From Tetradesmus obliquus (lineage: Eukaryota > Chlorophyta > Chlorophyceae > Sphaeropleales > Scenedesmaceae): 64,000 nucleotides of DNA. The stretch is taken from contig CP126201.1 of NCBI GenBank assembly GCA_030272155.1, positions 3,260,501 to 3,324,500 of the forward strand. The letters are read 5' to 3'. Made by a program: the position numbers and the translations under genes. Positions 17,509-59,576 of this stretch are shown piece by piece. The notes beneath the pieces are model-generated. The model saw nothing but the letters and a program-made list of their open reading frames with translations. It was not told where the DNA came from and did not search any database. Numbering within the stretch: the first letter of the stretch is position 1; each line of letters starts with the position of its first letter.

Positions 17509-17539
<31 letters not shown>

Positions 17540-26287: not shown

Positions 26288-29200
26288 TCACAGCGTGCTT
26301 GTGACAGGGCTGCTGGTGCCACTGCCTGCAGCGCTGCCACTCATGATCAAATCCTGCCAGTCAGGCGGCAGCTGGTGCTGCGCCAGGCTGCTGCCATGCT
26401 GCTGCCGCCGCCGCTGCTCCGCTCGCTTGCCTGCCCTACTGCCTGCGCTGCGCGGCACATACGACCTATCACCCGCATCCTGCTGCTGCTGCTGCTGCTG
26501 CTCGCTGCCAGTCCCATCCCAGTATCCATCTTCCGCTACTCCTTCTAGGCTGGCATTGTCCACAATGTAATCTGTAAAGATCTCATCTTCCGAAAGCGTC
26601 TCCAGCTGCCCATTGTCCCCATCATCTGTCACACTGCCAATTGTGCTGCCTGCTGTGCTGCTGCCATCAGCGGTACAGCAGTACGGCTGCAGCTTGCCAA
26701 CAAGGCAGAGAGGTACGCGTGCTGCCAGGCGCGTGCCCTGCTCTGTGTATGCTGTGCTGCTGACTTTGCCCATCTTGTGAAGCTCATCCAGCAGGGCACC
26801 AGCAGAGTACGGCAGCAGCACCTGCGACAGCAGCAATGTGCGGCAACAGACCAATGAGCGGCGTGTTTGTGCAGCTGCTTTGTTGAACCGGCTGTCTAGG
26901 CACGCACAGAAGCACTTAGGGTGCTGCACACAACGCCAGCCAAATAAACAGCAGACGATGCTGGATGCAGCTGACTTGTAGACAGCACAACACCCACCTC
27001 CATCTCCAACGCTGCTGCATAAGCACCGCCACTCCATATGCATGCTGCAAACACCTCGACTGCACCAGCACAGCACCCACCTCCATTTCGACCATGCTCT
27101 CAGCCAGTTTGCCAGCCACAGCAGCCATCAGCGCCTGCAGCCCCTCGCCGGTTGCCCCGCTGATGGCAACAGTGTCTGCGCGGCTGGCTGCAAGTGCGGC
27201 AACTGCTGCCGGGTCAGGGCAGGCGTCGATCTTGTTCCAGGCGGTGACCAGCGGCAAATCCTGCACCCCCAGCTCCTCCAACACCTGCCATCAAACATGA
27301 ATGTGAAAGCAGTAGGAGCAGTACATAGGTGTGAGTTGGTTTTAGTCATGCTTGGTTGACGGAAGTATCAGGCATCGCTCTTGTTCCAGGCAGTGACCAG
27401 CGGCAAATCCTGCACCCACAGCTCCTCGAGTACCTGCAACAGAAAGTGATTGATACTTTGACGTTGTCGGAAACAGCAGAAGCAGGAGGGAATAGGGAAT
27501 GCACTGTAGTCCAAAGATTGTTGTAGCTCCATGCATGACAAGCGCATGTGCATATGGTGACAGATACATGATGCATGCTGCAGGCACAATGCTACAGCTG
27601 CTGCAATTGTTTCTTGTTGTGTTTTGCAGCACCAAGCTAGATCGCACACCAAGCACATTAACACATTCTGCGCACCTGCAGCACAGCCGCACTCTGCGCA
27701 GGCGCATTGCCCGCTGAAACGTCCAGCACGTGCAGCACCACAGATGCCGAAGCGATCTCCTCCAGCGTGTCCACAGACAAAGACCCAGAACACAGCCCCA
27801 ACTTCAGCATGCCCCTGAGCTGTTCATCAACAACGCAGGCGCTACACACACATGCGAGAAACACGCATGCATCCACACAGCAGCCCACCACAAAATCAGC
27901 CGCGCATTGCAGGATAAACCCGACGCACCTGCAGGACCGCTGCACACTGCGCAGGCGCGTTGTCGGCTGAAACGTCCAGCACGTGCAGCACCACCGATGC
28001 TGAGGCGATCTCCTCCAGCGTTGCCCTGAAGGCCGCCACCAGCTGGGTGGGCAGCTTTTGAATGAAGCCCACAGTGTCACTGAACAGCACCTCCAGGTTG
28101 CCACCCGGCAGCCGCACCTGTGGTACAAACAATTTGAAAGAAACCACAGCAGCAAAGAAGCCGAGATGGAGCACAAGAGGTGAGTGGGCAGCTTCTGGAT
28201 GAAGCTTGCAGTGTTACTGAACAGCACCTCCAGATTGCCCCCAGGCAGCCGCACCTGAGGTGCAAACATGAAATCAAGGTGGCAGAGCAGCATATGCGAA
28301 GTAGGCACCTTTGGCATGAAGCCCACAGTGTCAATGAACAGCACCTCCAAGCAGCCGCACCTAATGCAAGGACATATTGCAAGGACACAAGAGGAGTAGC
28401 ACAGGTGAGCATGAGGAAGACAAGCAGCAGACCACTTGACACGGGGTTGCACCCTGGCAGCCGGACCTGAGGCGCAAGCAAACATACATATCAGCAGCAA
28501 CACATGTACAGCTGGAAAAAAGGAAGCGGAAACCACTGGCAGCTGTTGAATGAATGCCACGGTGTCGTTGAACAGCAATTCTGAGTTGCATCTGTGTCAT
28601 GGCACCAGGCCACGTTAAGTATCTCAGCACCCGCGACCACCACTCAGATCATACCAAAACACGGACACAGCCAGGCAGGCAAGCAGCCTCTCACTTTGCG
28701 CGTGGTGGGGTCCAGTGTGGCAAAGAGCTTGTCCTCTGCCAGCACCCCCGCATCTGTCATCGTGTTGAGCAGCGTCGACTTGCCCGCATTGGTGTAGCCC
28801 ACAAGAGCCACCACAGGAATTGGGGCGTCTTGGCGGCGGGTGCGGTGCGCTGCACGGTGTGTGCGAACAGCCTGCAACTCCCTGCAGCAGCAGCACAGAC
28901 ACAGGACATGCATGTTTGCTTGTGCAGCTGCTGGTTGCAGCATTGGCTGCATACACATAATCAGTGAACAGCCAAGTCCCGCGCGCGCGTGCTCACAACA
29001 TCTGCAACCACACACCCGCCAGCGTCACAAGAAGGCACATGCAACAGAACGTAAACCATCCCAGCGTCCCAAACAGCGCTCCATCGCTGTCCACGAGTTG
29101 GCATCATAACCAACAGACGAAAGCGCCACAACCTGCCCACACTGCGCGTTACACAAACTGAGTTGCCGCACCGTCGCAGTGCCGCCGCCTTGTCGCGCAG

Positions 29201-32200
29201 CAGTCGCTTGTCGATCTCAATTGGCTGCTACTCCGCACAGCAGCGAACTACACATGTTTGCAAACAGAGTTGCACAGCCCATCGCACCTGCGCAGTGCTG
29301 CAGCCTTGTCCCTCAGCAGTCGCTTGTCGATCTCGATCTGCTTCTCTCCCGTGCCCTTGACCTGGCCACCACCCGCCACTCTGTCCAGGTGGCTCCACAT
29401 GCGCGTCAGCCGCGGCAGCTGGTACTCCGTCTGAGCCAGCTCCACCTGCAAGTGTGAAAATGTTTGAAGGGATGGAAAATGTTGAATTGTGGTCGTGTTG
29501 TTGAATGTTGGCAGTAGGTATGTGCCTGTGGCGGCAGCTAGTACGCCGTCTGAGCCAGCTCCACCTGCGATCGATTTGTGAGAAGAGCAAGTCAAAAGTC
29601 ACCAATGTTAAGACAGATACAGAAGTGACGTTTGTGCTGCAGCATTACCACATCCAACAGGTGAGCAACAGCAGTCACATGCTGGGCTGCAGCTACAGGT
29701 ACAGCAACAGCAAGCTGCTGCCGTTGTAGCTGCCATTAAGCAGCCGCAGCCCCACCTGCAGCTTGCCCTCGCGTGTGCGTGCGCGCTGGCTGAAGATGTC
29801 CAGGATCAGCGCGGTGCGGTCCGCGACAGCAACCTGCGGCAGCAGCGTGAATAAAGTAATTGTCTTGCGTTATTGCACATGATGTGTGACACATTTTCAC
29901 ATGTACTGACAGCAGTGCGTGCAGGAGATGTGTGGGATGAGCGCGGTGCATGGCACACACATCAACAGCAAACGCCGCATACCTCTGTGAGCATGCACCG
30001 GATAGCACCGCAGTGATTGATGTGACCAGGCAGGACACCAGCTGCGGCTCCAAGCTAGCTGCATGCAGCATCCCTACTGCCAAAACTACGCAGTAGCCCG
30101 TTGCTGGGCTTGAACATATTGACCAAGGGTGCTGCCAGCCTCACCTGGGCTCCCTCCCTGCCGCCTGAGAAGGCCTTCTCCAGGTTCCTCAGCTGCCCCG
30201 GCGACAGCTCATCATCAAAAATGACAGTGTCGGCCTGCGCAGCACACGAATTCAAGTCACGGTGCCAAGGCATCACAGCACAGCAGCAATGCCGTCAGTG
30301 ACAAGCTCGTCGAAGGAAATTGTTGCTAATCAGCATAGTAAATGACAGCACAGGCCTCTGCTCAACAGGCACCAGGCCACCCCTTTCCCCAAGTAAGGTG
30401 CAAAAGCCAAGGACTGTCTGCACAACTCCTGCTGTCACTATCACAGGCATGCATGCTCCTTGTAGCTGTGGTCGTTCCTGCAAACCACAGCAATGCTGCA
30501 ACACCGCCAGCAGCAGGTGCGTCCACCCACCTTGAGAGCAGTGACGGCTCGAGCCACCTCTGCCACCTTGCCGCTGCCGATGTAGGTCGAGTTGTTCGGG
30601 GCTTCCAGCACCTGGTAGTTGCTGCCGACCACCTGTTGAAGGGAGCAGCACGTACGATCAGCAAGCCATAGACATATTGAGCGAGTGCAGCACAGTAAGC
30701 ACGGTGGGAGCAGTTGATGCTCAGCTGCCACAAGGCACAGCAGCAGACCAAAACGTTGTAAAAAACCAAAACGTTGTAAAAAACCAAAACGTTGTAAAAA
30801 ACCGGCACAGCACATAGCAAACGTCCCTAGCAAGTGCCGAGTTTCAAAAGGATAAGGAGAGTATTGTCTCCATGCCTGCCAGCGCCTTACCTGCAGCCCA
30901 GCTGTCTCTGCCAGCCTGCCGAGCTCATCAAGGGACTCATGCACATTGTAGCTAACCTGCGGCTGCCGCTTGCTGCTGCGGCTGCTGCTACTGCCATCCC
31001 CAGCATCTGCTGCTGCAGCAGGAGCAGCCCAAGGGCTGTAGCTGCTTGCTGTCATGCCTAGGCCACCACTGCTACTGCCGAAGAGGCTCTGCTGTTGCTG
31101 CTGCTGCTGGCGGCGCTGCTGCTGTTGCTGCTGCTGCTGGTACTGCTGCTTGTAGGCGACTCCCACGAGGTACACTCGCTCCTTCTCTGTGGACCAGAAG
31201 TCCTGCAAGCAGCGCAGAAAGTAACATAAGTCAGACATTCAAACAGTGTTACATGTCCCCCAAACTCACCCAGCCCAGCCCAGCGCACCGCAGCACATCA
31301 AGCCCATACTGCGCTTGCAGGCATACATGTGCACAGTAGTAGCACTTCTGCTACGCATTTCTCAGCCATGCCTTCCAACTGCTGCGTGCCACACCATACA
31401 AGGATGAAGGTCAGAACAGGCCGACCGTCATGTAACAGTGTCATGTAACGGTGCCCCACCTCTCCTGAGCGCCTCATCTCGTCATCATCATCATCCGCCT
31501 GCTCCCATCCATCCTCCTCCTCACTGCCACTAGAGCCTGACAGCACCTGCAGCACAGCACAGCGAAAATCGGCCAGGGCATCAGCGCAGTAAGCATGAGG
31601 TACTGCTGCTTGGTGCAAAGCAGCCATCCTCCTCCTCACTGCCGCAAGAGCCTGACAGCACCTGCACCACAGCACAGCAAAAAGGCGGCCAGGAGATCGG
31701 TACAATGAGCAATAGGGAGTGCAGCTTGGTGCAAAGCAGCCATCCTCCTCCTCACTGCCGCTCGAGCCTGACAGCACCTGCAATTCAACGCACAGTAGTT
31801 CAACCAGAAGATGGCAAGCCAGACGTTAGCACACGGCTGTAGAATTGGCAAGTCAGCATGCAACAAACGCATGTTGGGTGCCCTGACAGAGAATACACCC
31901 AACGGCCAGATGAGCAAATGCACTGAGTATTGTGACCACGACTGCAGCAGAGACGGCGCGCCTTGGCAAAGGCAGCTGCTACAACCAGGAACCATGCATG
32001 CCTTGCAGCCTGCAACTGTGTGTGCTAGCATGCAGTAGCGAGCCTGCTGCTGCATGGCTCCTGTCTTTGCCAGCCTGGCCGCACCTGCTGCCGTGCTGCT
32101 GCCATCGCTGCACGAAACTCATCTTCTGACATGGCAGATGACACCACCTGGCCTGCTGGACGCTGCACTGCTGCTGCTGCACTGTCATCACTGTCAAAAT

Positions 32201-32507
32201 CGTCATCCTCCTCGTCAGCACTGCCTAACAGGATGATGTTGTCATCTTCTGCCAAGTCAGCATAGTCAGCATCATCTCCATCTGCTGCTGCTTCTCCATG
32301 AGGGTTGCTGCTGCTGCTGTCTCTTGAAGGTGGAACTGCTGCTGCTGTGACACATGCAGGGCGTGTGCGGAGCAGCACTCCAAGGCGCCCTTGCTGTGCA
32401 TATCCGGATGCTGCGTAGGTTCGGCTGCAGGAGCTCGCTGTTGCTGAACCCGCTGATGGCGCTGCTGTTGACTGCACAATGCTGGCCCTGCCTAGAAGTG
32501 TGCACCC
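26288..32507 (-). CDS. HFLX: HflX ribosome-associated GTPase, probably plastidial
   Basis: HflX GTPases bind the large ribosomal subunit and split stalled ribosomes. Exons (minus): 32507-32085, 31546-31460, 31202-30891, 30632-30531, 30234-30145, 29833-29756, 29445-29288, 28881-28695, 28117-27929, 27284-27081, 26821-26288, all in phase (787 residues plus an unseen first exon). The N-domain reads [20 protein letters not shown] and [20 protein letters not shown]. The G1 loop is [19 protein letters not shown]3 is [12 protein letters not shown] and G4 is TAWNKIDA. A long Ser/Thr/Gln tail after LVGKLQPY is not part of the bacterial core. The acidic, Ser-rich N-terminus suggests a targeting peptide, but no initiating ATG exon was located above 32507. 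Its introns carry many partial exon copies, listed separately. Confidence 0.9.
26998..27012 (-). repeat. Echo of HflX exon 10 end plus donor
   Basis: A short copy of the last bases of exon 10 with its GTGGGT donor lies 83 bp downstream of the real donor (boundary at 26998 versus 27081). Confidence 0.55.
27370..27433 (-). repeat. Echo of HflX exon 10 start plus acceptor
   Basis: It reads CAG|GTACTCGAGGAG and encodes [20 protein letters not shown], close to the true exon start [20 protein letters not shown]. It lies 149 bp 5' of the real exon in the preceding intron. Confidence 0.8.
27676..27785 (-). repeat. Open echo of HflX exon 9 second half plus donor
   Basis: It encodes [20 protein letters not shown] and then [11 protein letters not shown], ending at a usable GTGCG donor, in the intron after exon 9. 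It differs from the real exon at only a few residues and has no stop. It lacks the exon's first half and its acceptor. The offset is 253 bp. Confidence 0.8.
28190..28594 (-). repeat. Cluster of echoes of HflX exon 9 first half
   Basis: The intron before exon 9 holds at least four tandem copies of its acceptor and start. Boundaries are at 28254 (open, [20 protein letters not shown]), 28360 (internally deleted) and 28466 (VRLPGCNP only), plus a fourth, boundary-less piece at 28533-28590 ([15 protein letters not shown]). Spacings are 137, 106 and 106 bp. Most of the intron consists of these copies. Confidence 0.8.
29166..29225 (-). repeat. Echo of HflX exon 7 end plus donor
   Basis: It copies [17 protein letters not shown] and a GTGCGG donor, 116 bp downstream of the real donor (29172 versus 29288). 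Confidence 0.75.
29528..29564 (-). repeat. Echo of HflX exon 7 start plus acceptor
   Basis: It reads CGCAG|GTGGAGCTGGCTCAG, then diverges with an in-frame TAG. It is 119 bp 5' of the real exon start (29564 versus 29445). Confidence 0.75.
30748..30801. repeat. Three exact copies of an 18-bp unit
   Basis: CCAAAACGTTGTAAAAAA is repeated three times without change inside an HflX intron. The A-rich composition stands out from the surroundings. Confidence 0.9.
31621..31777 (-). repeat. Two tandem echoes of HflX exon 2 start
   Basis: Boundaries CTGCA|GTGCTGTCAGGCTC lie at 31661 and 31777, against the real exon start at 31546. The units are 115 and 116 bp. Each copies the acceptor and the first half of the exon ([12 protein letters not shown]), then shared intron sequence. 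Confidence 0.85.
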
Positions 32508-34055
32508 CTGCAGACATGACAGGGTGCAGGACGAAAAGCTTACGTACACCCTTATGGCAGCCAGGTTTGGAGTGGTGTGATGATCAGGGCGCATACCATG
32601 CATGCATGCACATGTTCAGGCTCTGGGCACCAGAAATGTTGTCTACATGCCCGCTGGTTGCAGGGCGCATATGCACTGCTGTGGATGATCAGCCCAAACG
32701 CCTTGATGAATCACCTGTGTCGGCTTCCATGAACAGCTGGGCACGGCACGTCGATACACTGCAGCTGCTGCTGTGCTGCGTGGCTGTGCTGCTGCTAAGC
32801 CATGATTGGGATGGTGCCACATGGCTGTGGAAGCCGACAAACCGGCAAGCAGTTGAAGATTCGTTTACAACACCACGTCTTGACTAGTTCATCACGGTGT
32901 TGCACGTGTGAACTGTACGTGTTTCAATGTGTTGTGCCGATGCGCCAGTTCAAGCCACCTATGATGTGTACATGGCAGTCAAACTGTGCCAATAACACGA
33001 GCCACGGATGTAGCTGTTAGTGCTGAGAGTTGGTGAACAACCCTGCTCAACACCCTGCAGCAGGACCCTGCCAGGTCAGCTGAATAACACTGCCTGGAAT
33101 TCAGGGAGTCATCATCTGCAACCACCTCTGCAACGGCTGACGCTAGCCAGAACCCTGTTCAGCGCTACTCACGCATGATCCCCTGCACGATTGTCAATGC
33201 TGTGGCTGTACGCAGCCTGGTGTTCCCCTGCACACTAGGCACATGTTTGTCACGTCTGCATCAGCTGCAAGTGCAAGTATCCCAGTCCTATGCAGCTTGA
33301 ATGAACCAACTTCTTGCAGCTTCTGACCAGTCAGGTATGCAGGTGGTGCCTTGCGAACAATATCTTCTGCCTGGCCATTGGCATTGGTGTGCACACCTCA
33401 TCCAGTGGGGAACCATGTGACATGTCACCAGCTGCAAGTGACCAGCAACCCTGGAAATGTTAACAAGCACAACCGGCAAACAAACTGAACGCAGATAAGC
33501 GATGCGAAAGCTAGCAGGTGTCGCTGTCCTGCTTCTCCCCTTTTTCTGGAGCTGAGAGCCCTGAAGATCCGTAGACATCCGTGCCTCAATCCGTGAACGC
33601 CACAACCGTCACTTGTACATCGCGTTCAACACGTACGTACTGCTTTGGAAGTGCGTGGTCGGGCGATACTCACTATTGAGTACAGCAAGCTGCTCCAGCT
33701 GTCACTGTCTGAAGCCTTGCATGACCACCTGTGCTGCTGCTGGGACCAGGAGCATGGCACACGGTCGGAAATGTAATGATTATTCTCAGTTGCGTTAGCA
33801 ACAGCATTGAGGAGCCCTACGGGTGAGCACCTCGTACTTTCCACAGGCATGGCAGCAGCTCAGCAGCAGCAGCAGCAGCAAATGCAAATGGATGCTCTCA
33901 GGATTCATACATGTCACACCACTCCATAATCAATCTGTAGAGTCAGCCTGCCTCAGTGTGCCCATGACTCTCCTGACAGGTCACGCATCCCCACCATCAT
34001 CTGACACTTGAAAACATGTTGTCGTTGTCCCGGCCCCGTGCCTCATGCAGCAGTT
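32508..34055. other. 1.5-kb divergent spacer between HflX and the M43 protease
   Basis: It must contain the missing HflX first exon and the promoters of both genes. Minus-strand frames at 33288-33605 and 33626-33850 were considered as the HflX first exon but neither joins convincingly. Confidence 0.4.
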
Positions 34056-34542
34056 ATGAAGCCGAGTAGGCTTCAAAAGCTGGTATTCTATAGCTTTACT
34101 GGCATCATTTTCATCGGCATTGGCCTGGGGCCAGGAATCCTCTGGGGCAAGGCCCACAGAGCAGCACATGCCAGAGCAGAGCAGCAGCTGGTGGATGCGT
34201 CAGCTGCAGGCAGCAGGCAGCTGCAGGAGCTGCCGCCTGCAGGAAGTCCTGAAGCAGCACAGCTGCTGGCAGATGAAAACACAGCAGGTAAGAGTTGTGG
34301 CAGCGGCAGGGCTGTTGATGCAAAGCAGCTGCTACAGTCGCGGAGTCAGCAGCAGCAGGGTTGTGGCGACACAGTTGCTTGTAGACTCGCTTGACTGCTT
34401 GACTGCTGGTGCAATGCTATTGAAGCGCCTGCAGCTTAGTTTCTTGGGAGCATCGGTTGCTGCTACACCTACAGCTTGCCAGCTACCGTATGCAAGTGAC
34501 TATAGCAATTGTGCATCATACATCTGCCTGTCTGCCCACCTA

Positions 34543-34594
<52 letters not shown>

Positions 34595-37500
34595 CAGAGT
34601 ACGTGTCGACCATATACACCTACCTGAACGATGCTGCTGTCATCAGCAGGAACAGCACAGCAGCCTTCCTGCAGGAGCTGCAGCGCTGGCAGCAGGCCAG
34701 CCAGCCCAACAGCACGCTGGATGTGGCGCCTTTTGTGGCGGTTGCAAGAGACATGCTGGGCTACTTCAGGCTCAGGTGCGAGCACAGATACAGTTACGTA
34801 ACATAACGATACAGTTTATGCATTTTTCTTGAGGAATTGCTGCAGAAGCGACGTGTTACTCAAGCGGTAGCTTCTTGGTTGTTGTTGACAGTCACTGCAT
34901 GGTCTGCACGGCAACGAGCTGAGGTGCTCCTGCCATGTAGGTAGGGCAGCTGCTCCCCAGGACCAGCAGCCACAGCTTGCAGGAACCTACCATGTTGCAC
35001 ACCAGTGCACAACATGTGCAAGCACAGCCTTGTACAGCCTGTTGCAGCTTCAGCTGTCTGAAGTAAGAAGCATCGCCATGCTGGTGTTGATGCTATGCTG
35101 CTGTGTATGCTGTGCTGCAGGTACAGCGAAGCACTACTGGTGCTGCTGCGGCAGTTCTCAGAAAGCGGCGTGCTTGTGCCGACAGCAGTCAACCCAGACG
35201 TGCTGCAGCAGGAGGTGCAGCAACTGCTCGACACTGCAAACTTGAACAGATACTATGCAGCAGTGTCCAGTGGGTGCGGGCAAGCAACACAGCGGGGCTT
35301 TGTGACGGATGAAGAGACAGTGTCATATGCAGCAGATGCAGCGACGGGTGTAACACAAGTGAAGGTGGGCATTTTGCTGATTACTGCAGCATGTTGGATC
35401 ATTGATTGGCAGCTATTATTGAGATCTGTCAACATTACACTTCTTATGTTGCAAGCCTAGTATCACATTTTGTGCAGTCGACAGGTGCTCCTTATTGTGT
35501 CAGCTCAAGCACCACACTGCAGACAGGGTGACCCGCAGCTGCAGCTGTAGATGCAGCAGTTGGCTGCCCGGCAAGCAGCTTTACCAGTGCGGCCAACGGA
35601 GATAGCCTGGGGGTGCCATCGCAGTGAAAGTCAACGGCTGTTGCGGCCGCTGATGGTGTCCCGCTGTCTCACCGCTGCACAGGTCACTGGCAGGAGGTTG
35701 CTTCAGCAGCAGCTGGCAGAACTTCCAGGAGCACGCCGCAGCCGACGCCACCATCAACACAGCTCGGCTGCTATGGGCACATCAATACGGCCTCCATTCC
35801 TTGGCGCAATCTATGCCTCATCTGCTGCAAACAGCACCGCTTTTGCAGCAACAGCAGCTGGTGCTGTCCACAGGCGGGCAGAGTATTACAGCCGCAGCCG
35901 GCATTTACAGCAGCAGAGCAGCTTATCAGGCACGTTCCAGGACACCATATGCTTGGTGCCAACAGCCAATTGGCCAGTGGATGGGCCTCAAGATATCACC
36001 TTCAGCTGCCCAGACATGCAGCAGCGGCCAAAGCTTGCAGGATTCCAGCCGGCAGAAATGCCTGTGGTGTTTCACTGTGAGTTGCGCGGATCCTGCAAGC
36101 AGTAGTACCCCTACAGCCTGCGAGGCTGTAACAGTTGTTACAGGTTACAGTCGACAGGTGTACAGGGCTCTGGAGTGCCTGCAAGCAGTATGTCCAAGCA
36201 TTGCATGCACCATCAGCAGCAACGCAGCCTGCGTGCAGGCTGTTACAGGCCAAGCATATCTTCAAGTTCCCTCATTGAACTGGCAGCCCCTGCTGCTGTG
36301 TTTGGTCGTGTGCCTGCGCATGCTGCTGTTTGTTCAGGCCTGCGCTACCCCAGTGAAGATGGGAGGCACGTGCTGCCTGCCATTGAGAGGCCCCAGGAGG
36401 CAGCACAGAACCTCATAGATGTAGCCAACAAGCACTTCGAAGGCAGTGGGCTCAGGTGTGTCTGGACAGTCCTGCAAAGTCTGTTAGGCAGTGTATTACA
36501 CTAGCATGTCGCTTCAAGCCTGCCGTCTGCATAGTCTATGGCTGCATGCATGTTGCAGGGGCTGCTTGTGCTACTGGTCAATCAACATTTGCCTCAGCTG
36601 CATGTGCTCAACTTGGTCTGCTTTGTGCTGCAACTTGTTGCTGTGCCTATCTGCAGTTTCAAGATGCAGGAAGTCCGCACAGATGCCGCAAAGTACCCCT
36701 ACCTGCTGCTGCACTCACTCTCAAAATGGCAAGAGTGCAGCATCAACAATAACAACAAGCAGCTAGAGCAAAAGGGCCTGGAATGCCTTAGTAAAGCTGC
36801 AGCCCAGCCAAGTGTTGTCATTCTGGCCAGCCAGCTTGTCATTAACGTTATTATCAGCAGCTCACCCCACAGGCCGTCCTGCTCCGGCGAGCAAGACATC
36901 ACCTGCAACCACACGATCTGGGGCTACGCGCAAGCAGATGGACCCTGGTTCAATGCAGGAACTGCAGATCCAAACTATCAAGAAGGTGATTCAGCAGGGA
37001 ACTGGCTGTGGCTTCGGTTTACGGAGTTGGATGTGGGAGGCCGCAACAACGCTAATGTGTGGGAGGCAGGGGGCAACACTTTCGCCCATGAGGTGCGTGT
37101 GGATTGCGCAGGTGGCCCCGGGACGCAGCAGTACAGCTCTCGGTGCAGAGTGAGCTGGTTGCTTGTATGCTTGCATGATCGCTGTATGTCACAATGTCCG
37201 CTTTACTGTGCCAGCTGCTGTGTCACTTGCTGCACCTGTGTGTATCTGGTGCTTGCAGCTTGCGCACTACCTTGCATTGATGCACACACATCAAGGCGGC
37301 TGTGAAGGAGCACAGCCTGGCAAGGGTGATGGAGTGGCTGACACAGCAGTAAGCGAGCCGCTGCAAGTATTGGATGACGCACACCCTCAAGACCTGCACT
37401 TGCAGCTTACAAACTGGTGCACGGGGTTTAGGGACGGTTCTGGACCGCTGGTGCAGGATTTGAAAGTATTTAACAGCTGCCCCAAGCCCAGGAAGGGGCA

Positions 37501-37666
37501 ACAGCATGCTGCTGATATTGCTGTTGACAATGTGTTCAACTTGATGGCGTATGTTCCAGATGTGTGTTACATTGGGGCGCTGACACCTGGGCAGGTGGAG
37601 CGGCTACAAAGCATGGTAGCGCGCTACAGGCCAAGGATGATGGATGCCTTCAAGACAGGGAATTGA
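34056..37666 (+). CDS. Pappalysin-like (M43) zinc metalloprotease, N-terminally membrane-anchored
   Basis: Exons 34056-34287, 34598-34775, 35121-35364, 35683-36076, 36338-36455, 36657-37092 and 37259-37666 join in phase to 669 residues. Near the N-terminus one hydrophobic segment (KLVFYSFTGIIFIGIGLGPG) follows a short basic stretch, predicting a type II membrane protein or uncleaved signal. The catalytic part has HELAHYLALMHTHQGGC: an HExxHxxxxxH zinc motif created across the last splice junction. It is followed by GDGVADTAVSEP and a Met-turn-like NLMAYVPDVCY with a TPGQVERL ending. These are the arrangement of M43B proteases such as pappalysins, which cleave extracellular proteins. The usual Gly in the zinc helix is Ala. 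Cys-rich pairs suggest disulfides. Exon 4 is the least certain because another frame overlaps it. Confidence 0.8.
34543..34594 (+). repeat. (CCTG)n tetranucleotide tract at a splice acceptor
   Basis: Thirteen perfect CCTG units end directly at the CAG acceptor of protease exon 2, so the tract is the polypyrimidine region of that intron. Length changes could affect splicing. Confidence 0.9.
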
Positions 37667-38266
37667 GCGTCACCAGGAGGACTTGCGAGGATGTGTTAAC
37701 GCTGCAGCTTTGGTGCCGCAGCACTTCAGTTCCGGTTGTTGATGCTGCTGTAGCTGTTGTGAAGAATATGGCGTGTATGTGTAACATGTGCTTCAGTTAC
37801 CACAGCGACCGCCGACTGGGATGGCATACGGCCCGCATGCGCATGTGTTGCTGCACAAGCCAGCCAGCTGGCAGAAGTAAGCAACCGTGTTGAACCACAG
37901 CTGTATCACCAGGGGCGGTCCGGCAGGCCAGAGGATGAAGTTCGTTGATGCTCTGTTGCAGTTCATGCAGCCTGGTTTGAATGTCTGCAAGCAGAACCCT
38001 GGACTGTTGCAACCCCGAACGCTGGTGTCGTCACAGTTGCGAGCCACATGGCGATGGCCTGAGAGGAGGACAGTGTGAAGTGTGTATGTGTGCCCTCGCA
38101 ATAAGCTGACCTGCAGTTCTAACATACAAATTACTGTTGTCCCGCCTGCACACAATCCTGCAAGTGTGTTGCTGCATGCTCGCATCCCCAGCATTGACGG
38201 TTTTCAATCTTAAAGCAGAACTGTCTACGGATTTAAGATTTGACCAGCTCTACCCGCCACAACGGT
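37667..38266. other. Spacer between the protease and TruB genes
   Basis: Both flanking genes point right. No gene or recognisable regulatory motif is seen. Confidence 0.45.
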
Positions 38267-40886
38267 ATGCTGCCCGCACAGCACTCGCACTGTCTGCACA
38301 ACATACAGCAACCAGGGCTTCGTAGCAGGCAGCTTTGCCCGAGCGCAAACTGCGGGCTTATAACAAGTAGCAGACGTTTCTCGTCATTGATAGCGGCTGT
38401 TGCAAGGGAGCGCCAACGACAACAGCAGCAGCAGCAGCAGCAGCAGCATGGTCAGGCCAGTAGCCTTAGGTCGAATAGCATGGGAACGCAGCAACACCAA
38501 AGCAATCCTATGCAGCAACAAGATTGGCCGCAGCAGCCTCCACAGCAGCAGCAGCAGCAGCAGTTGCAGCGAAGGCAGCAACAACAACAGCAGCAGCAGC
38601 AGCAACTGGGCTACTACTTGACAGGTGGTGACAGCGACCAGTGGACGTGGGATGACGACTACAACCCTGCTGTGCGGGTGAGTCACACAGCACCACATGC
38701 ATGCATGCTGCACCTCGTGCTGCATCTTTTTCCACTGCTGGGAAGTAACAGAGGTGGCAGCACTCCAAGTGCTGCCCAGCATAGTTGCTGTCTGCTGACT
38801 TGCGACCAATAGTCAGCACATATCTGCTTGCAGCGCCCAGCAGAGCTCAGCAGCATTGGTGTAACCAGGACAACGTCTGGCCCTGTGCATGCTCATGTGC
38901 CGCGCCACCAACATGTTGCACCTGCATGAATCTGCTGCTGCCGCAGGCCAAGGTGGCAGCAGCAGCGCAGCAGCTGCCGCCCACGCCTCGCCAGCAGATG
39001 CTTGCCCAGCAGGCAGCAGCAGCCTCGCAGCAGCTGCCCACAGTCATCAACCGGCTGCCTGAGCAGTTCAATGCGCAGGTGGGTCCAGCAGGCAGCATGT
39101 TCAGCTAGCTGCAGACATTGACAAGCCAGGTTGCACAGTCTCTACCGCTGCTCCTCGCCACTCCCTGCAATCAACAGCTCATCACGCATCACATCTTGTA
39201 AACTTTACAGCTGCATGATCGCTGGAATGGGCCGGTACCGTTGACGCAAACAGCAACCTGAGGGTGAAGCCCCCTTCTTTTGCAAGTCTATACTGCAGGT
39301 GCTGTCCAACGCAGTACTGCTGATAGACAAGCCGGCGCGCTGGAACAGCACCGACGTGGTGCGGCATATTGTTCACATCAGAGATGCTGGCTGCTTTGTA
39401 CGTGTCCTGCAGGTGCTGTCCAATGCAGTGCTGCTGATAGACAAGCCGGCGCGCTGGAGCAACACCGACGTGGTGCAGCATGGTGTTCACATCAGAGACG
39501 CTTGCTGCTTTGTACTTGTCCTGCAGGTGCTGTCCAACGCAGTGCTGCTGATCGACAAGCCGGCGCGCTGGAGCAGCACCGACGTGGTGCGCGAGCTGCA
39601 GCGCACGCTGAAGCTGCAGAAGGTGTGCCATGGCGGGCCGCTGGACGCGCACGCCACTGGGCTGCTGATCGTGCTCATGGGTAAGTACGGTCGTGTACGT
39701 TGCTCACACAGTCATGTCACTCGTCCCATCCCACATTGCAGGTGCTGCCAGCCGGCTAATTTCAAAGCTTGAGCCCTTAGAAGGGACTTACAGCGGGACC
39801 ATCAGCTCGGGTCAGCCACCTGCCACGTATGATGCCACAGGCCAGGTTACACAAGTGTCAGCCAGCTGGCTTTACACACACACTACTGACACCAGCATGT
39901 CACTGACGCCTGTGTACTGCAGGTGCTGCCAGCCGGCTAACTCCAAAGCTTGAACCCTTAGAGAGGACCTACAGCGGCACCATCAAACTGGGTGCAGCCA
40001 CCACCACGTATGACGCCACAGGCCAGGTTGTTACATTGTCACCCGCCTGGCGCCAGCTCAGCGATGCTGACGTGGCAGCAGCAGCAGCAGCGATGCAGGG
40101 CGAGGTGCTGCAGGTGCCGTGCATGTGGAGCAGCACCAAGTACAAGAACAGGGTGAGCCGCCAGCTCTGCACTCGTGCAGTGGCACACATGCTGATGGAC
40201 GCTTTGATTGTGCATACGTGCTGAAGTGACGGGTAACTCACCCAGAGGCTGGTTTGCACAGGTCTGTCTGTGAGAGGGTGTGCGTTGCAACCAGCAGCGG
40301 CATGCTTGGATGGATGAGCGCTGGGCGCCGGCCGCCATCCAACAGGGCTTGACTAGTGTCAAAGCATCCCCGCCTGTCAGTCGCTCACTGCTGGGTCCAC
40401 GCATGTTGTGGTTTCACCATGCCTAAAACTGTCATTTTGCGCTTAGCTGCTGTTGTTTTGGCATGTCGTGTTCTGCAGCCGCTGCGCTGGTATGCCGAGC
40501 GGGGCGAGGAGGTGCGGCGGGAGCCCAAGGCAGTACAAATAAGTTCCATACAAGTCTGGCGAGACAAGGCGTCGCCTGCAAGCGACAGCAGCAGCAGCAG
40601 CAGCCCCACAGCAGCTAGTGATAAAGCCGACGTAGCAGGGCTGCAGCTTGATGCCGCGGCAGCAGGCTCAGATGAGGTGCATTTCAGGGTGGTGGCTGGC
40701 AAGGGGGCCAGTATGCGCGTGTTAGCACATGACTTGGGTGCTGCGCTGGGCTGCGGGGCACATCTTTTGAGCCTAAGGCGTGAGGCCATAGGGGGCTTTA
40801 AGGTGGACACTGCGTGGAGCTTAGAAGTGCTGCTGCCGCTGGCAAAGAAGTATGGCAAGGGGTTCAAGTTTGCGCCGCAGGCTTAA
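38267..40886 (+). CDS. TruB-family tRNA pseudouridine synthase
   Basis: TruB enzymes convert U55 to pseudouridine in the tRNA T-loop. Exons 38267-38677, 38947-39078, 39527-39680, 39923-40152 and 40479-40886 give 444 residues in phase. The N-terminus (SRRFSSLIAAVARERQRQ) looks like an organellar presequence, followed by poly-Gln. The catalytic part reads AVLLIDKPARWSSTDVVREL, then GGPLDAHATGLLIVLMG with the catalytic Asp, SGTIKLGAATTTYDATGQV and WYAERGEEVRREPK. A C-terminal domain (HFRVVAGKGASMRVLAHDLG, AHLLSLRREAIGGF) completes the fold. Exon 3 has two upstream echoes, exon 4 one, and the 3' end is tandemly repeated past the stop (TAA at 40884). An organellar location is inferred. Confidence 0.85.
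39299..39526 (+). repeat. Two in-frame tandem echoes of TruB exon 3 start
   Basis: Each copy begins at CTGCAG|GTGCTGTCCAA (39299 and 39413), and the true exon begins at 39527: two perfect 114-bp steps. Each encodes VLSNAVLLIDKPARW.. and then STDVV or NTDVV. The frame stays open from 39299 right through exon 3, because 114 is a multiple of three. Confidence 0.9.
39742..39848 (+). repeat. Echo of TruB exon 4 start
   Basis: It reads CAG|GTGCTGCCAGCCGGCTAA and encodes GAASRLISKLEPLEGTYSGT, closely matching the real exon 4, which begins 181 bp further on at 39923. It is open and in the same phase as exon 4 but does not continue into the rest of the exon. Confidence 0.85.
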
Positions 40887-40937
40887 GTTATCGTGTATTG
40901 GGCCTGATTGATGAGGTTGTAAGCGGCATCACGCGCA

Positions 40938-41410
40938 TGCCGGCGCATGATCTGGGTGCTGCACTGGGCTGCGGGGCGCACCTGTTGAGCCTTAGGCGTG
41001 AGGCTATTGGGAGGCTTCAAAGTAGAGACTGCGTGGAGCTTAGAGGTGCTGCTGCCGCTGGCCAAGAAGTATGGCAAAGGCTTCAAGTTTGCGCCGCAGG
41101 CTTGATTATATCATGTGTTGAGCCTGCTTGATGAGGATCATGCGGCATCACGCGCATGCTGGCGCATGTCTTGTTTGCTGCACTGGGCTGCGGGGCGCAC
41201 CTGTTGAGCCTAAGGCGTGAGGCGATTGGGAGGCTTCAAGGTAGAGACTGCGTGGAGCTTAGAGGTGCTGCTGCCGCTGGAAAACATATGGCAAGGGTAA
41301 CTTCGGGTCACAGGCCTGATGAAACAGGATGGGATCAGGCGTGCAGCTTGGATGTGCTGCTGCCGTTGGTGTGGAAGTATGGCAAGGGTGGTGTTTTCGT
41401 GCCGCCAGCT
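40938..41410 (+). repeat. Tandem copies of the TruB 3' end, including the stop
   Basis: The segment encoding GAALGCGAHLLSLRREAIG to the stop is repeated after the gene at offsets of 218-219 bp (about 40938-41105 and 41157-41330), with a shorter fourth piece near 41351. The copies carry frameshifts and are not expected to be translated. Confidence 0.85.
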
Positions 41411-42880: not shown

Positions 42881-42914
<34 letters not shown>

Positions 42915-44131: not shown

Positions 44132-44844
44132 CCTTGCATCAAATGGGGCTGATTGCGTGTGCATCTAGAGCGCGTGCTGCATGTAAGCATCAGCTGCAGC
44201 GCGTCCTGACCCAGTCACTGCCTGAAAGTGTTGCCGTGGCTGGCCGTATTAGAATTTTCGAACAGCATGGTAACAGCACAGCTGCTGGCGCCTGCTTTGT
44301 GTACCGCTGTGGCTCAACATCCGCTTTGGTAACAAAACATGAACACAGCACTAGCCTTTATGTACAAACACAGCAACAAGCTCTGACGCTGCGCGATCCA
44401 GGTATGCAGCACTGTTGTTTAACAACTTACAAAGCTGGCAGCGGCAGCTGAAGCCTGTGTAGTACACTGTGCAAATAACAGTCAGGCTGTCCCAGCACGG
44501 CGTACAACGGTGCCAACTGCGGGTGCATACTGTGGACTCCACAGCAGGCGGGTGGTGCCACCAGGCTGAGCCTGCACAGCCGCACAAGATCCTGACTTGA
44601 GATGCACCCTTTTGAAGGATGCAATGCTTCATGTTACTGAACAGCTTTACAGCCGTACGGACAGTGGTCCATGTATGCAAACATCCTGCTGGTGAATGTC
44701 ATCCCCTCACAGTGAGATGGTGCCAGGACCCACATATCAATCCATTCTAGAAAACGCAAAGCACCCATCCTTATCACCTTCACATTTGTAACCATCAGCG
44801 CGTTGCTCCTCCGCTACACTATGGTACACTGCACGCCGCTGCTC
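44132..44844. other. Convergent 3' flanks of LRR gene D and MCM8
   Basis: No gene is seen in this stretch, which must carry both 3' UTRs. Confidence 0.45.
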
Positions 44845-54544
<9,700 letters not shown>

Positions 54545-55096
54545 GGCTTTAACAGCTGGCGTTAGGCTATTTGTCTAGTTGTCAAGAGCCTGTTGCTGGA
54601 GTATAATCAGCCATCTGCACGAGCTGCTGCATCAACTAAAGTGAGCTGTGCTGCTAAGCAGTGCTGCGGCATACCGCCTGGACCAATTACTATCAAGCCA
54701 GCAAGCTGCAATCAGTTGCAATTATGTCAGTGCAATTGGAGCGATCATGGCAGATGAACGCTCGCCGTAGAAAGGATTGTTTGGTTCATTTTGAACCATG
54801 TCATTAGGGCTCTTCACCGTTGTTGTTGTCGATGTCAGTGCGTATGAGTGTTTGCTGCGGTTTTGTCGCTGCATATTGTATCTCCAACGACACAATCAAC
54901 GGTAGCCCTGGTGCAACACGCTCGACTGCCGAGTGCGTCATCCCCTTGGGTGTAGGACTGTTGCTACCATCACTACGTTGCAGTTCAAGTACGCAGGCCG
55001 TTGAAGGCAGCACACTGAACATCAGTTGATACGGTTTTCTACATTATTGCTGTCTGATACAGAGGTCGCTGCAAGGCAGCAGTGACAGGGAGACAG

Positions 55097-55128
<32 letters not shown>

Positions 55129-55197
55129 GCAGCAGCAAACACACTGGCAACAAAAGAAACCACCATAGCTAGCAACAGCAATAGCAGCTGCAGTAGC
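54545..55197. other. Divergent promoter region of MCM8 and the SMIM13-like gene
   Basis: The two genes start on opposite strands about 650 bp apart. No gene or clear motif was found between them. A CAG/CAA-rich tract lies at 55092-55190. Confidence 0.45.
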
Positions 55198-56232
55198 ATG
55201 GAGCAATGGCTGGCAGGTGGCAGCTGCCTGCTGTCTCTGCTTCTGGTACTTTCAACCATTGTAGCAGGCAAGCTCAGGCCTTGGCATGCCTTACCAAGCT
55301 TGGCATTGCATTTGGCACCGTCCTGCTTCGGCCAGCAAGCTGGCAAACAGCAGTGTCCGAGGTGTTCCTCTCCCACATGGTTTGACATGCTTTTATGCTG
55401 CACATGCAGGCTGGCTTGTCCTGTGGCACACAACTCTCAAGGACATTGGTTTCTTCCGGGAGATCATGGGCCTCAACAGGTGCACTGAACAGCAGGAGCA
55501 GTAGCGTCTCATTCGTTCATGCCATGCGTTTGCATCCTTTCACATGCCACACTGCTGCAGAGCTGCGTGACATGGCAATAACACCCACAATAGCTGCACC
55601 TGGCAAGTACACAGCTGCTGTTGTATTTTTTCTGTTTACACCGCACACTCAACATCTGCACTGTTCTGTCTTGTCAAGTGCAGGCCCAAGCCTGAAGTGA
55701 AAGCACAAAGGCAAGCTTCCATGAAGGCTGAGATTGAAAAGATCAAGGTGAGGACGGACGCCAGCAGCAGGTGCAACCAAGGCTTGCCTCAACAGGCAGG
55801 AGGGATAAGGTTTGTTGGCGGCAACAGCAGCAGCAGCAGCAGCAGCAATTGCTGCCAGGACATCACCAGCAGCTGGTCTGCATGCAACTGGGAGGAGCAA
55901 TGATCTGTGGGTGACAGCAACAGCGAGCATGCAACGGACGAAACCTAGTAATCGTTTTGTCCGAGTAGGATACAGTCTTTCAGCGCCAGAGCCAGCTTCA
56001 GTCCTGCTTACATGTTGTAAAATAAAAACTCTCCCTCTGCAACTGGATGCGCATTCCTTGTCGAGCTCATCATGCTAAGATGCGCCTGTAATGATGCTTG
56101 ATCGGTTTGCTGGCTTTTCTTGTGCCACTGCAGAGGCAGCACAGCAGGTCTCGCACTGCCTCTGTGCGGTCAGCCAGCCGACCAGACCAGCAGCAGCAGC
56201 AGCAGCAGCATGCGGTGCCTCAAGGCAGTTGA
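55198..56232 (+). CDS. Small single-pass membrane protein resembling SMIM13
   Basis: Exons 55198-55267, 55410-55479, 55684-55747 and 56134-56232 give 100 residues in phase. It has an N-terminal hydrophobic helix (CLLSLLLVLSTIVAGWLVLW), then HTTLKDIGFFREIMGLNRPK, a basic helix (AQRQASMKAEIEKIK) and a short Arg/Ser tail (RSRTASVRSASR). The order, a transmembrane helix running into 'GW..VWH....(K)F.R E.(M/V)G' with an RSAR-like tail, matches my memory of the animal SMIM13 family of unknown function. The first intron uses a GC donor (CAG|GCAAGC), which alone keeps the helix and WLVLWH joined in frame. The final exon is less certain than the first three. Confidence 0.6.
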
Positions 56233-57699
56233 GAATGGCGTGCTCATTTGGGCTCTGCTGCCTACGCATTCAAGCAGCTTCATCCCTGAGTTAGCACATC
56301 ATTGACGGCAGTGCTGGAACGCCTTCAATGTGCCACACGGCAGCCGCCAAGCTGCATGCAGTAGTGGCATGTTCAATCCCTTTACCCCCACGCCTCCTTG
56401 CAAGCAGCAGCTTGCGCCGCCGCCGCAGCTACCAAGTTATGCCTGCGACGTGGCGTAACAGTGGATGTCCTCCAGCAGGTTTGTCAGAGCCCTCGTGATG
56501 AGTGGCATTTGTATGTCGCGCTAGCTATAGCCTCGCGCAGAGTCTCAGAGCACAGCTGGTTGTGTCGCAGCTGCGCCTCAAGTGCCATCTGCGCTGCTGT
56601 AGAAACCTTATTACCGTGATGCGACATCATCCAGCTTACATCACGGCAGCTGCATGCAATTCTGGCGTGCACGGTAAACAGCCACTGCACTGTTACAGGG
56701 GTTTGCAGCTGCCGCATGTCACAGCTCTTGCACACCTATTGATTGTCATCATCTATTGCTTGATGGCCGTTGCATACCTCGCAAAATTGGTTTTTTGCTG
56801 GTTGGGTTGAAGTCCCTGATACCTCAGCGCGGCTGTTATCTGCTGCCAGCGCTGTGCAGTGTGTGAAGTGTGTCTGGGACCTGCATCTTTCTGCTGACCT
56901 TCTCACAGTGCAAACTTCATGTTATAACAGTGCTGCAGTGACTGTAGAACTCGTACAGCTTGAAGTTGCGCAGCATCAGGCAGTACACAGCAGCTCTTGC
57001 TCTATGGCGCTGTGCAGCATGTGGTGTTATTGCTTCTTTGTTATCACAACAGGTCAAGGCTTGTCAAAACGGTATGGCCTAGCACAGTGTGCCGTGTGCT
57101 TGGCTCAGTTGCAGCATCAATGTGCATTCCATGCAGCATGCAGGATGAAGGCAGCAGGCACAGCAGCAGCACCAGTGCAAGGAAGCATGCACAGCATCAG
57201 CACAGCTTGGCGTTCAAATGTTTATTCACAACAGGCTTTGATGTTTCTGCCCGGTGTGTGCGTGCATCGCTTGTCGAGGCTATGCACCTAATCAGGCACT
57301 GCACGTACCCGTCATGACACCCGGGCTTCTTGTCTCTGCGCTGTGTTGTAATAAGTGCCGCGACACTTGCTGTTTACATGTTCTTCTATGCTTGACCCAT
57401 TGAATGTCGACTTGAGAAGATCTGGCTGAAAACGCAGGCCCGCGTGATCCTACTGCTAATTGACTACAATCACGAATCAGCATTCTACGCTGTTTCAGAC
57501 AGCACCTCGACTTATTCCTTACCCTGAAACACCTACAATCAGACATCAAAGCCTGCGTCTGTCCGTGTGTGCTGCTCTGCTTTCGGCGTATCCTGTTCTT
57601 GTGGCGCGAAACTGAAGAGCGTGTGCATCACACGTCTCTACCAGAACGATTCAGCGTGAATTTTCTATTAGTACGACTAAGTAGCGTTTAAGCAGCGTC
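56233..57699. other. 1.4-kb stretch without a recognisable gene
   Basis: Short open frames exist (56398-56619 and 56770-57291 plus) but show no domain or consistent splice partners. It probably contains the SMIM13-like 3' UTR and the promoter of the hydrolase. Confidence 0.45.
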
Positions 57700-59576
57700 A
57701 TGGCCCGAAGGACTGCCGCTTGCTGCTTGCTGCTGCTGGCAGCCATGGCAGCAGCAAGCCTCTGCAGTGCAGCACGGCTCCCAACTCGGCAGCATCGCGG
57801 GCTGTTGGCAGTAGCAGCATCCACAGGCCCCAGGCAAGCAGCAAAACCGCTGCTGGGGCTTGACCGCGCAAACAAGAAGCTGCGGGTGCTGGCATTTGGG
57901 GACTCTATCACAGAGGGCTGGATCAACAGTGCTTATACCAAGGTGAACAAAGTGGCAAAGCCGCAGCCAATCAACTTGGACTCTCAGTCAGTGGTTCGTG
58001 CACATTCACGTGTGTGTGCTTACCCTGAGTTGTGCTGGTCCACCTTTGATGCGTGGACCCCATCCTTGCAGCTCACTGCAGCGGAGGATGTGGCAGCCAA
58101 CGCGTCTTGGGCGTGCCAATTACGCCGCTTGAATCCCTGAAAAATAGCAGCCAAACAGTGGCCTGCTGTGCTGCGGTGCTGCATCTCACTGCAGCAGGCA
58201 ACCAAAACGCATTGGGCACGCCAACTGCCTCGCACGCATGCCTGGCAACTAGCAGCCAAGTAATTCCTGCTGGCCTGCTGTTCTGCGGTGCTGCAGGTGC
58301 CCTGGAGCCCCCGTGTGCAGCAGAAGCTGCAGCAGAAGCTGGGCGGAGACTGGAACATTGAGGTGGTGAATGGAGGTACGCAGCAGCTCATTACACCCAC
58401 CCCGTACGCTACATTTTCCTTAAACACACAAATTGGTTTTGCTCATCCAGCACTTGCCACAGCTGCATCAGACACACAAGATTGTTGCCACCTGTTGGCA
58501 CGTGTGCCTCAGTACCCGCGGCTGCCTGCGCGCTGCGCAGATGAGCTTCTGCATTACCAACTTTTCAGAAACGTGGTCTCCATGCGTCTGATCAAAGTAC
58601 CGCGGCATGTCCCTGCATGCAGGCGTGGGCAGTGCTGGCGTGCTGGACCGCCTCAACGACGCCTTCCGGCAGCAGCTGTCAAGCGCCAGGTCAGCCGGCC
58701 GCCCCTACCACTTCATAACCTTCGAGGCAGGCATCAACGACCTGCTGCTGCAGAACAGGAACGCACCTGAGATCTTTGAGCGCATGAAGGAGCTATGGGT
58801 GCTCGCAAATGCAGAGGGCTCCACTGTGGCTGTCATCCCAACGCTGCCCACTAATGTTGCGTGAGTGGTGGCTTTACATTTGAGTTGCAGGAGGGCAGCG
58901 ATGTACAGCAGTGCGTGTCGATCACAGTCTCCAGTTTTCTGGCAGCAGCTATCTCTTTGCATCCGCGCCAACCTTGCTCGATGCCAGCATGAGCAGCCAG
59001 TTGGTAGCTGTGGGTGCTGGCCAATGCAGAGGGGTCCACTGTGTCTGTCATCCCCACCCTGCCCACCAACGTTGCGTGAGTGGTGGCTGCAGATTGGACT
59101 TGCAGGAGAGCAGCGGTGTACAGCAATGCACGGCATCTGCCAAACTGCTACCTGACAGCAGCAGCATTTGGCAGCTTGCGCAGTTGACTGAAGGACATGG
59201 AGCGGAGCAAGCACCAGCTGCCACTACATGCATACTGCGTTGGCATTCTGCTGCTACTGATTAACACCCTGCTACTCTGCTGTGCTGCTGCTGTGGATTG
59301 CCTGAACCCAACCACCAATCGCGCCCTTGCAGCGGTGAGCGGGAGCAGCAGCGCCTGGCGCTGACAGCCAAGGTCCGGGAGTACGTCAAGCAGCAGCGCG
59401 CTGCTGGCAACAAGGGGCTGTTCATCATTGATGTGGAGCAAACCTTTGCCTACCTCAGCTTGTCACCGGAGCGCCGCGCGCAGCTGTTTGACGATGGCGT
59501 GCACCTGACGGTGTACGGGTATGAGTTGCTTGGCGACCTGGTGACACAGGGCCTTGCAAATGCCATGGACCTGTAA
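57700..59576 (+). CDS. Secreted SGNH/GDSL-family hydrolase
   Basis: Exons 57700-57942, 58297-58375, 58623-58860 and 59333-59576 give 267 residues in phase. Residues 1-25 (ARRTAACCLLLLAAMAAASL) form a typical signal peptide. Block I is VLAFGDSITEGW with the nucleophilic Ser. EAGINDLLL is the Asn-bearing block III (GxND). FDDGVHLTVYGYELL supplies the catalytic Asp and His (DxxH) of block V. The family hydrolyses ester bonds in lipids, acetylated sugars or thioesters; the substrate cannot be told. The short length and lack of a plant GDSL C-terminus point to the small bacterial-type TAP/arylesterase class. Intron 1 and intron 3 contain duplicated segments. Confidence 0.85.
58078..58296 (+). repeat. 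Tandem ~112-bp duplication at the end of GDSL intron 1
   Basis: The acceptor-proximal segment ending GGCCTGCTGTTCTGCGGTGC is preceded by a diverged copy ending at about 58184. The offset of the shared box is 112 bp (58160 versus 58272). In the first copy the AG of the acceptor is lost. Confidence 0.7.
59017..59075 (+). repeat. Echo of GDSL exon 3 end plus donor
   Basis: It encodes VLANAEGSTVSVIPTLPTNV-like sequence and the same GC|GTGAGTGGTGGCT donor, 215 bp downstream of the real donor (59075 versus 58860). Confidence 0.9.

Follow-up and report, generated by a model that had tools for sequence, protein, structure and literature searches.

Tandem duplication is an established source of new introns according to the available parts of two accounts (PMC3443670, PMC4974935), where Rogers 1989, Gao & Lynch 2009 and Hellsten et al. 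2011 are cited for introns derived from tandem or internal gene duplication. We describe a related pattern in the green alga Tetradesmus obliquus, in a stretch of 64,000 nucleotides on contig 11 (positions 3,260,501-3,324,500; hereafter the window) of a genome of 104.7 Mb in 17 contigs. In the window, introns of the HflX, TruB, MCM8 and GDSL hydrolase genes contain partial copies of the neighbouring exon edge together with its splice site, termed exon echoes. As in tandem-duplication intron gain, including the potato RdRp case (PMC4974935), a local duplication inside a gene is tolerated through splicing. In the intron-gain model of these sources, an exonic segment with AGGT is duplicated and makes a new intron, AGGT supplying both donor and acceptor, whereas in T. 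obliquus the unit crosses an existing border, falls into size classes and forms arrays. The AGGT route of Rogers and Hellsten was rejected for the echoes, as AGGT was not enriched in the copied exon parts: 5 of 64 such segments had it, a density of 5 per 3532 bp versus 98 per 34450 bp in controls.

Two other systems are comparable. Mouse embryonic stem cells form small tandem duplications by CST-Pol alpha-primase fill-in of complementary 3′ overhangs and end joining, as set out in excerpts of PMC8355091; these duplications are likewise direct and tandem, and their length follows the overhang, making this a candidate mechanism. The overhangs in those excerpts were 43 and 49 bp, however, which predicts neither the lengths described below nor a connection with exon borders. 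Introner elements, in the sections of PMC9860276 available, resemble the echoes in changing intron content greatly within a lineage; unlike introners, the T. obliquus spacers share no element (36 spacers compared with a 284-kb sample). We regard the echoes as a variant of tandem duplication in which the length rule is unexpected and borders are preferred. Among the entries listed in searches of the open literature, none described exon-edge arrays in introns or the length classes reported here, which does not establish that no such description is in print.

Exon edges recurred in their own adjoining introns at 72 of 710 predicted borders, comprising 39 of 355 exon starts (upstream intron) and 33 of 355 exon ends (downstream intron), and 64 of the 72 matches came to within 3 bp of the border. 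The preliminary description of the window had named equally frequent matches between introns and unrelated exons as a refutation, and this was not borne out: randomly drawn introns matched in 5 of 4110 cases (the own intron being left in the draw) and shuffled introns in 0 of 710. Within a gene, introns at a remove of two or three gave 2 matches in 1051, and inverted (reverse complement) copies were found at 2 of 710 borders versus 72 direct ones. That description had also stated that copies 5′ of an exon carry the exon start and copies 3′ the exon end. With 60-bp probes from exons of at least 150 bp, this geometry was borne out at 39 of 341 borders, versus 4 of 337 for the wrong geometry (exon end in the upstream intron, 2/173; exon start in the downstream intron, 2/164), and probes from exon middles matched in 5 of 219 cases. 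The observation is real and strongly non-random.

These counts came from the window and 22 other 10-kb stretches (27 were fetched, of which one read N, three were satellite and one was added later). Stretches were spaced evenly, one per Mb, along contigs 1 and 2 and part of contig 3, with five more preset on other contigs; the stretch at 6.0 Mb of contig 2 (L034) and L035 were picked after their neighbours proved hot, and L035 was examined by self-comparison and gene prediction only. L019 (N) and L013, L023 and L031 (satellite arrays) were dropped from gene-based counts. The window was cut into 10-kb pieces, and genes at the cuts were split. Gene models other than MCM8 were from our own unsupervised hidden-Markov gene finder. 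The exon edge at each predicted border was aligned to its own adjoining intron. CAG/CTG runs were common in exons and introns of the window and sampled stretches, making filtering necessary, and copies with more than 40% CAG/CTG words were removed. Exons called echoes or shorter than 30 bp were left out of the border set, and sides with less than 50 bp of searchable intron (58) were not counted.

Self-comparison of the window gave 43 local pairs (spacing below 3 kb). None begins before 17.1 kb and six begin at 17-24 kb, in or beside an intron-poor paralogue pair; the rest lie at 27.2-31.8 kb (HflX, minus strand), 39.3-41.4 kb (TruB, plus strand), 46.0-52.1 kb (MCM8, minus strand) and 58.1-59.1 kb (GDSL, plus strand). 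By this comparison no local pairs occur at 31.8-39.3 kb or beyond 59.1 kb, and the first 26 kb holds nothing comparable to the intron copies of the four genes. Pfam matches support the identity of HflX (PF16360, PF01926, PF19275), TruB (PF01509) and GDSL (PF13472). At least fourteen exons or borders with one to five copies had been claimed for these genes; we found 34 partial copies in the adjoining intron at 19 borders (HflX 6, TruB 3, MCM8 9, GDSL 1), 1 to 5 each, among 32 border positions picked by hand, namely the known positives in HflX, TruB and GDSL, two extra borders in GDSL and 18 out of the 32 in MCM8, with 3 positions being alternative starts of one TruB exon. The unselected rate was 18 of 144 predicted window borders. 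The copies and associated features are as follows.

31621-31671 and 31737-31782, minus strand: HflX, two 5′ copies of acceptor plus exon start (predicted exon, first base 31546), shifts 115 and 231
31621..31782, minus strand: HflX, tandem unit of 116 bp, 2.4 times
29531..29568, minus strand: HflX, 5′ copy of the start of exon 29288-29445, shift 119, 95%, in-frame TAG (by eye)
29167..29234, minus strand: HflX, 3′ copy of end plus donor of exon 29288-29445, shift 116, 84%
28178-28264, 28301-28349 and 28538-28577, minus strand: HflX, three 5′ copies of the start of exon 27929-28117, shifts 137, 254 and 488; the second and third do not reach the border
27671..27768, minus strand: HflX, 3′ copy of end plus donor of exon 27929-28117, shift 253, 90%
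27369..27437, minus strand: HflX, 5′ copy of the start of exon 27077-27284, shift 149, 90%
39293..39520, plus strand: TruB, two 5′ copies of acceptor plus start of exon 39527-39680, shifts 228 and 114, unit 114 bp
39757..39870, plus strand: TruB, 5′ copy (shift 181) of the start of an exon that ends at 40152 and whose predicted start, 39923, is uncertain
40986..41388, plus strand: TruB, three 3′ copies of an exon end near 40867 or 40886 (uncertain, the two predictor runs differing), shifts 219, 436 and 527
46182-46288 and 46026-46078, minus strand: MCM8, 3′ copies of the end of exon 46441-46641, shifts 252 and 408
46701..46782, minus strand: MCM8, 5′ copy of the start of exon 46441-46641, shift 133
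47223..47286, minus strand: MCM8, 5′ copy of the start of exon 46999-47154, shift 133
47967..48241, minus strand: MCM8, 3′ copies of the end of exon 48407-48574, shifts 265 and 434
48606..48829, minus strand: MCM8, 5′ copies of the start of exon 48407-48574, shifts 116 and 245
49060..49126, minus strand: MCM8, 3′ copy of end plus donor of exon 49209-49334, shift 145, 93%
49394..49914, minus strand: MCM8, five 5′ copies of the start of exon 49209-49334, shifts 116, 235, 342, 458 and 574; a 1-bp insertion in the exon-derived part of two copies
50481..50794, minus strand: MCM8, three 5′ copies of the start of exon 50298-50438, shifts 98, 223 and 348
51943..51999, minus strand: MCM8, 5′ copy of the start of exon 51714-51857, shift 135, 81%
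59006..59085, plus strand: GDSL, 3′ copy of end plus donor of exon 58623-58860, shift 215, 89%
58067..58295, no strand assigned: GDSL first intron, intron-only tandem duplication of the same size class without exon, period 113, 69%

CTG runs were seen in the spacers of the five-copy MCM8 array. Eight of the 18 MCM8 borders examined had no copy, border 46999 had only an exon-internal one (46830-46879), and the two extra GDSL borders had none. Two statements of the preliminary description needed narrowing. Echoes had been placed in most introns of some genes, which is somewhat too strong: copies were present in 8 of 16 MCM8 introns. That none carries a complete exon is true of the window copies listed, although in the sample an 81-bp predicted exon recurs whole, with its flanks, three times at a spacing of 248-256 bp (L024:2534-3115).

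Spacings between neighbouring copies fell into two length classes. Among 100 steps at the 64 borders, which are not independent because some arrays were counted from both ends, 71 were of 95-150 bp and 24 of 206-300 bp, the others being 1 at 40-94, 3 at 151-205 and 1 at 348 bp. On the acceptor side 27 of 34 first steps lay at 95-150 bp, on the donor side 16 of 30. Without gene models, 85 self-similar arrays had smallest periods of 95-150 bp (62 arrays), 206-300 bp (10), 151-205 bp (7), less than 95 bp (4) or more than 300 bp (2); with 7 of 85 at 151-205 bp, the gap between the classes is therefore partial. Duplications off borders were similar in size (exon-only, 102 and 117 bp; four of five intron-only, 96, 113, 124 and 125 bp, the fifth being 76/109 bp), an indication that length is not determined by splicing. 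Over 41 short-class pairs, the shift was unrelated to the share of exon copied (r = 0.02), while exon share and intron spacer traded off against each other (r = -0.67), as duplication with a set unit length predicts. Half-distance remnants were considered as a source of the 206-300 class: 10 of 21 scored at least 30, as did 35 of 63 control windows, but the comparison is void because the control windows overlap the copies themselves; extents from it that included self-overlaps (identity 1.00) were set aside.

Arrays were also concentrated at borders. A real exon border is crossed by 71 of 83 arrays; of the others, 5 are confined to introns (intron-only), 2 to exons (exon-only) and 5 lie outside predicted genes; for young arrays (at least 85% over 80% of the unit) the corresponding numbers were 12, 2, 0 and 1. 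When 124-bp units were placed at random in echo-free genes, 34% were intron-only and 28% crossed one border and included 20 bp or more of exon. That the exon part stays visible for longer accounts for some of the border excess, but hardly for that in the young set, where numbers are small. Either formation or retention favours borders.

We consider it likely that the echoes are small tandem duplications of preferred length that arose across exon-intron borders, were spliced out and grew into arrays, possibly originating in break repair. The duplications observed are local, direct, border-crossing and size-classed, and they form arrays. Tandem duplication across a border, as the preliminary description proposed, is supported by the direct orientation, the geometry and the independence of shift from exon share. 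On the intron side the picture is mixed: 30 of 64 pairs have the homology such a duplication would leave and 34 fall short of it, and among the short-class pairs 13 of 41 have it at p < 0.05. The size classes (approximately 95-150 bp and approximately double), the gene and region specificity described below and the missing intron homology all go beyond that description.

Several results weigh against this reading. The 34 pairs lack sufficient intron-side homology by the criterion we applied (3 have a shorter stretch above the limit), their exon parts are as similar as those of the other pairs (mismatch 0.038 at codon positions 1 and 2, 0.148 at position 3), and exon and intron identities are uncorrelated (Spearman -0.03). 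Positions 1 and 2 change at approximately half the rate of a freely decaying echo. Intron-only arrays are too few, at 5 to 71 border-crossing overall and 2 to 12 in the young set, compared with 0.49 : 0.39 under random placement. The long class is commoner on the donor side (12/30) than on the acceptor side (4/34; Kolmogorov-Smirnov p = 0.03), and this accounts for the difference between donor and acceptor length distributions. We know of no repair process that yields two such size classes, and of no mechanism for a long class near double length.

The missing intron homology bears on whether whole units were duplicated at all. Break repair could instead have copied a short, nearby exon edge into the intron by polymerase-theta type synthesis or template switching, and many pairs do have in common only the exon part and 3-12 bp of splice site (for example, L026 4882-4960 with 5013-5091, and L015 1435-1486 with 1562-1613). 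Polymerase-theta templated insertion is expected to draw on both direct and inverted templates near the break, and inverted copies were all but absent in the border test. Nor does such insertion predict a constant shift with varying exon share, and 8 of 37 pairs picked for short intron homology still beat the mismatched-pair null (p < 0.05). We regard templated insertion as quite unlikely.

Differences between echo and exon were unevenly distributed among codon positions. Where the intron side aligned (30 of 64 pairs), mismatch in the intron (0.169) equalled that at third positions (0.167), a point in favour of tandem duplication, and was 0.041 at positions 1 and 2. Over all 64 pairs, 190 of 1201 third positions differed versus 96 of 2424 first and second positions, a fourfold excess that is more than neutral decay allows, and codon changes were 167 synonymous and 87 non-synonymous, where random changes would give 28:72. 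CpG was rejected as the cause: CpG sites were faster at each codon position, and the excess stays at non-CpG sites. Echo indels were 22 frameshift versus 2 in-frame, and with 5 stops they indicate that the echoes are not coding now. Part of the difference seems to have accrued while both sequences were coding, as unequal exchange between diverged alleles, or a phase of use after duplication, would produce. An attempt to polarise changes within arrays was dropped because silent exon changes between successive duplications mimic echo changes.

Two explanations draw on this silent excess. According to one, unequal recombination between strongly diverged alleles or homeologous chromosomes joined the exon edge of one haplotype to the intron of the other. 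This would account for the third-position excess in echoes whose indels and stops betray no present coding constraint, for exon divergence being equal with and without intron homology, and for regional clustering, which could mirror diverged haplotype blocks. It requires alleles to differ silently by close to 10% on average and, in individual instances, by more than 30% (at TruB border 40867, 11 of 33 third positions differ and 0 of 67 others), however, and it leaves the size classes unexplained; as a general account we think it improbable. The other, that echoes are alternative exon edges or splicing-regulatory copies under selection, could also call on the third-position excess and on the splice dinucleotides, with AG kept in 32 of 34 and GT in 28 of 30. 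A decay of 4% per site would leave approximately as many intact, and only alignments extending to 3 bp or less from the border were admitted. The frameshifts and stops speak against function, as do the lower scores of echo acceptors (5.2 vs 7.8; echo donors, 5.1 vs 6.1, not significant), the real sites in both comparisons having been picked by the predictor. By eye, every echoed MCM8 exon edge is present once in the annotated T. obliquus protein and is likewise single in the Scenedesmus sp. NREL 46B-D3 protein, neither of which contains an echo, and functional echoes appear very unlikely. Inner echo edges were separately considered as cryptic splice sites and rejected, as no consistent donor or acceptor was seen by eye in 37 cases.

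Echoes are patchy, being gene- and region-specific, and occur in many of the sampled parts of the genome. They were present at 35 of 106 borders in four contig 2 stretches at 5.5-7.5 Mb (one chosen after the others), 10 of 22 in one contig 13 stretch and, the window not included, 9 of 438 across the remaining 17; the 8.3 Mb stretch of contig 2 had one array of period 114 and one of 262. Counts per gene were overdispersed (chi-square 104.8 over 44 genes; mean 43.9 and maximum 115.2 in 2000 simulations), and 25 genes had none. Four hot sample genes that were scanned encode predicted proteins with SecY, MRS2-like, beta-eliminating lyase and WSD domains; hot genes look ordinary, and HflX, TruB, MCM8 and GDSL are not special. 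Codon bias was rejected as the cause of hot genes, GC content at third positions being 0.73 in 10 hot and 0.72 in 21 cold genes (p = 0.72).

High density in some regions is the only point in favour of an assembly artefact from uncollapsed haplotypes or repeat errors. Most copies have diverged, by several to 20%, and carry private changes, the units measure approximately 120 bp, the same size classes recur at many unlinked loci, and the assembly comprises 17 contigs for 104.7 Mb; such an artefact is scarcely credible. Mobile intron-like elements with long target-site duplications would give the observed copy-spacer-copy structure, but 36 of 37 spacers (one below 30 bp was left out) matched only themselves or their own array, plus words of 17-27 bp, in the 284-kb sample, and we judge this origin highly improbable.

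To return to tandem duplication, units of approximately 95-150 bp, and less often approximately 206-300 bp, would arise across exon-intron borders, conceivably from staggered breaks with complementary single-stranded ends of about unit length that are filled in and joined. The spliceosome would keep the splice site adjoining the intact exon, and for this reason the messenger RNA would be unchanged and the duplication presumably neutral, with the surplus edge and its own splice site left stranded in the intron. Mispairing between copies could then add units, giving arrays of edge plus spacer, repeated, followed by the exon. Some regions or genes may carry a feature that makes such duplication common. 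A share of the duplications may have come from unequal exchange between diverged alleles, and this would account for both the silent excess and the missing intron homology. Fill-in of the CST-Pol alpha-primase type, acting in the alga on overhangs near 120 nt, is a guess by analogy. Copy identities spread over about 80-100%, which makes the "ongoing" duplication of the preliminary description plausible. More tentatively, and on balance doubtfully, a length-quantised process (approximately 125 bp and double) that prefers borders, its length perhaps measured by chromatin or by splicing or transcription, could be a main cause of local intron growth, with dead edges recording the process and often joining diverged-allele sequence.

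Other repeats were noted. At L018:2869-3037, outside predicted genes, an 82-bp unit is perfectly duplicated in tandem, and both joints carry the 5-base word gtgag; this is a clean, recent unit whose joint has a short homology. L026:714-867 contains perfect nested repeats of approximately 33 bp within an intron, of a different kind from echoes. The satellites L013, L023 and L031 (contig 1, 4.5 Mb; contig 2, 4.5 Mb; contig 7, 2.5 Mb) have a GC content of 0.48-0.53 and a shortest main period near 297-312 bp, outside the 120-bp class, and are perhaps centromeric. The paralogue pair in the window (17123-18915 and 19947-21636) is a tandem pair of an intron-poor leucine-rich gene (84% and 73% identity), and its first member has an exon-internal 117-bp duplication at 17956-18177 (80%).

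The draft MCM8 protein from the window matched annotated T. obliquus P0001 (hypothetical protein OEZ86_013710), whose residues were placed on the minus strand in 17 exact pieces with only residues 840-847 uncovered. Within 44485-45749, the annotated C-terminus (last P0001 piece, 44485-44571) differs from the one that we predict at 44845-45380. Our version is similar to the Scenedesmus sp. NREL 46B-D3 protein, and these two finish MPASAFW. The public annotation of the last MCM8 exon is probably wrong. Gene predictors can also call in-frame echoes as exons, as ours did in TruB, MCM8 and other genes, and caution is warranted.

Mean intron length is 462 bp in T. obliquus (UTEX393) versus 230, 302, 284 and 270 bp in four other green algae, as tabulated in the part of PMC5966456 available, where no cause is named. 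Echo arrays lengthen introns and are a candidate cause of this long mean. Small tandem duplications are common enough in T. obliquus for their length rule, breakpoints and fate to be studied, and through them break repair can be linked to exon borders and intron length in a way that is open to testing.

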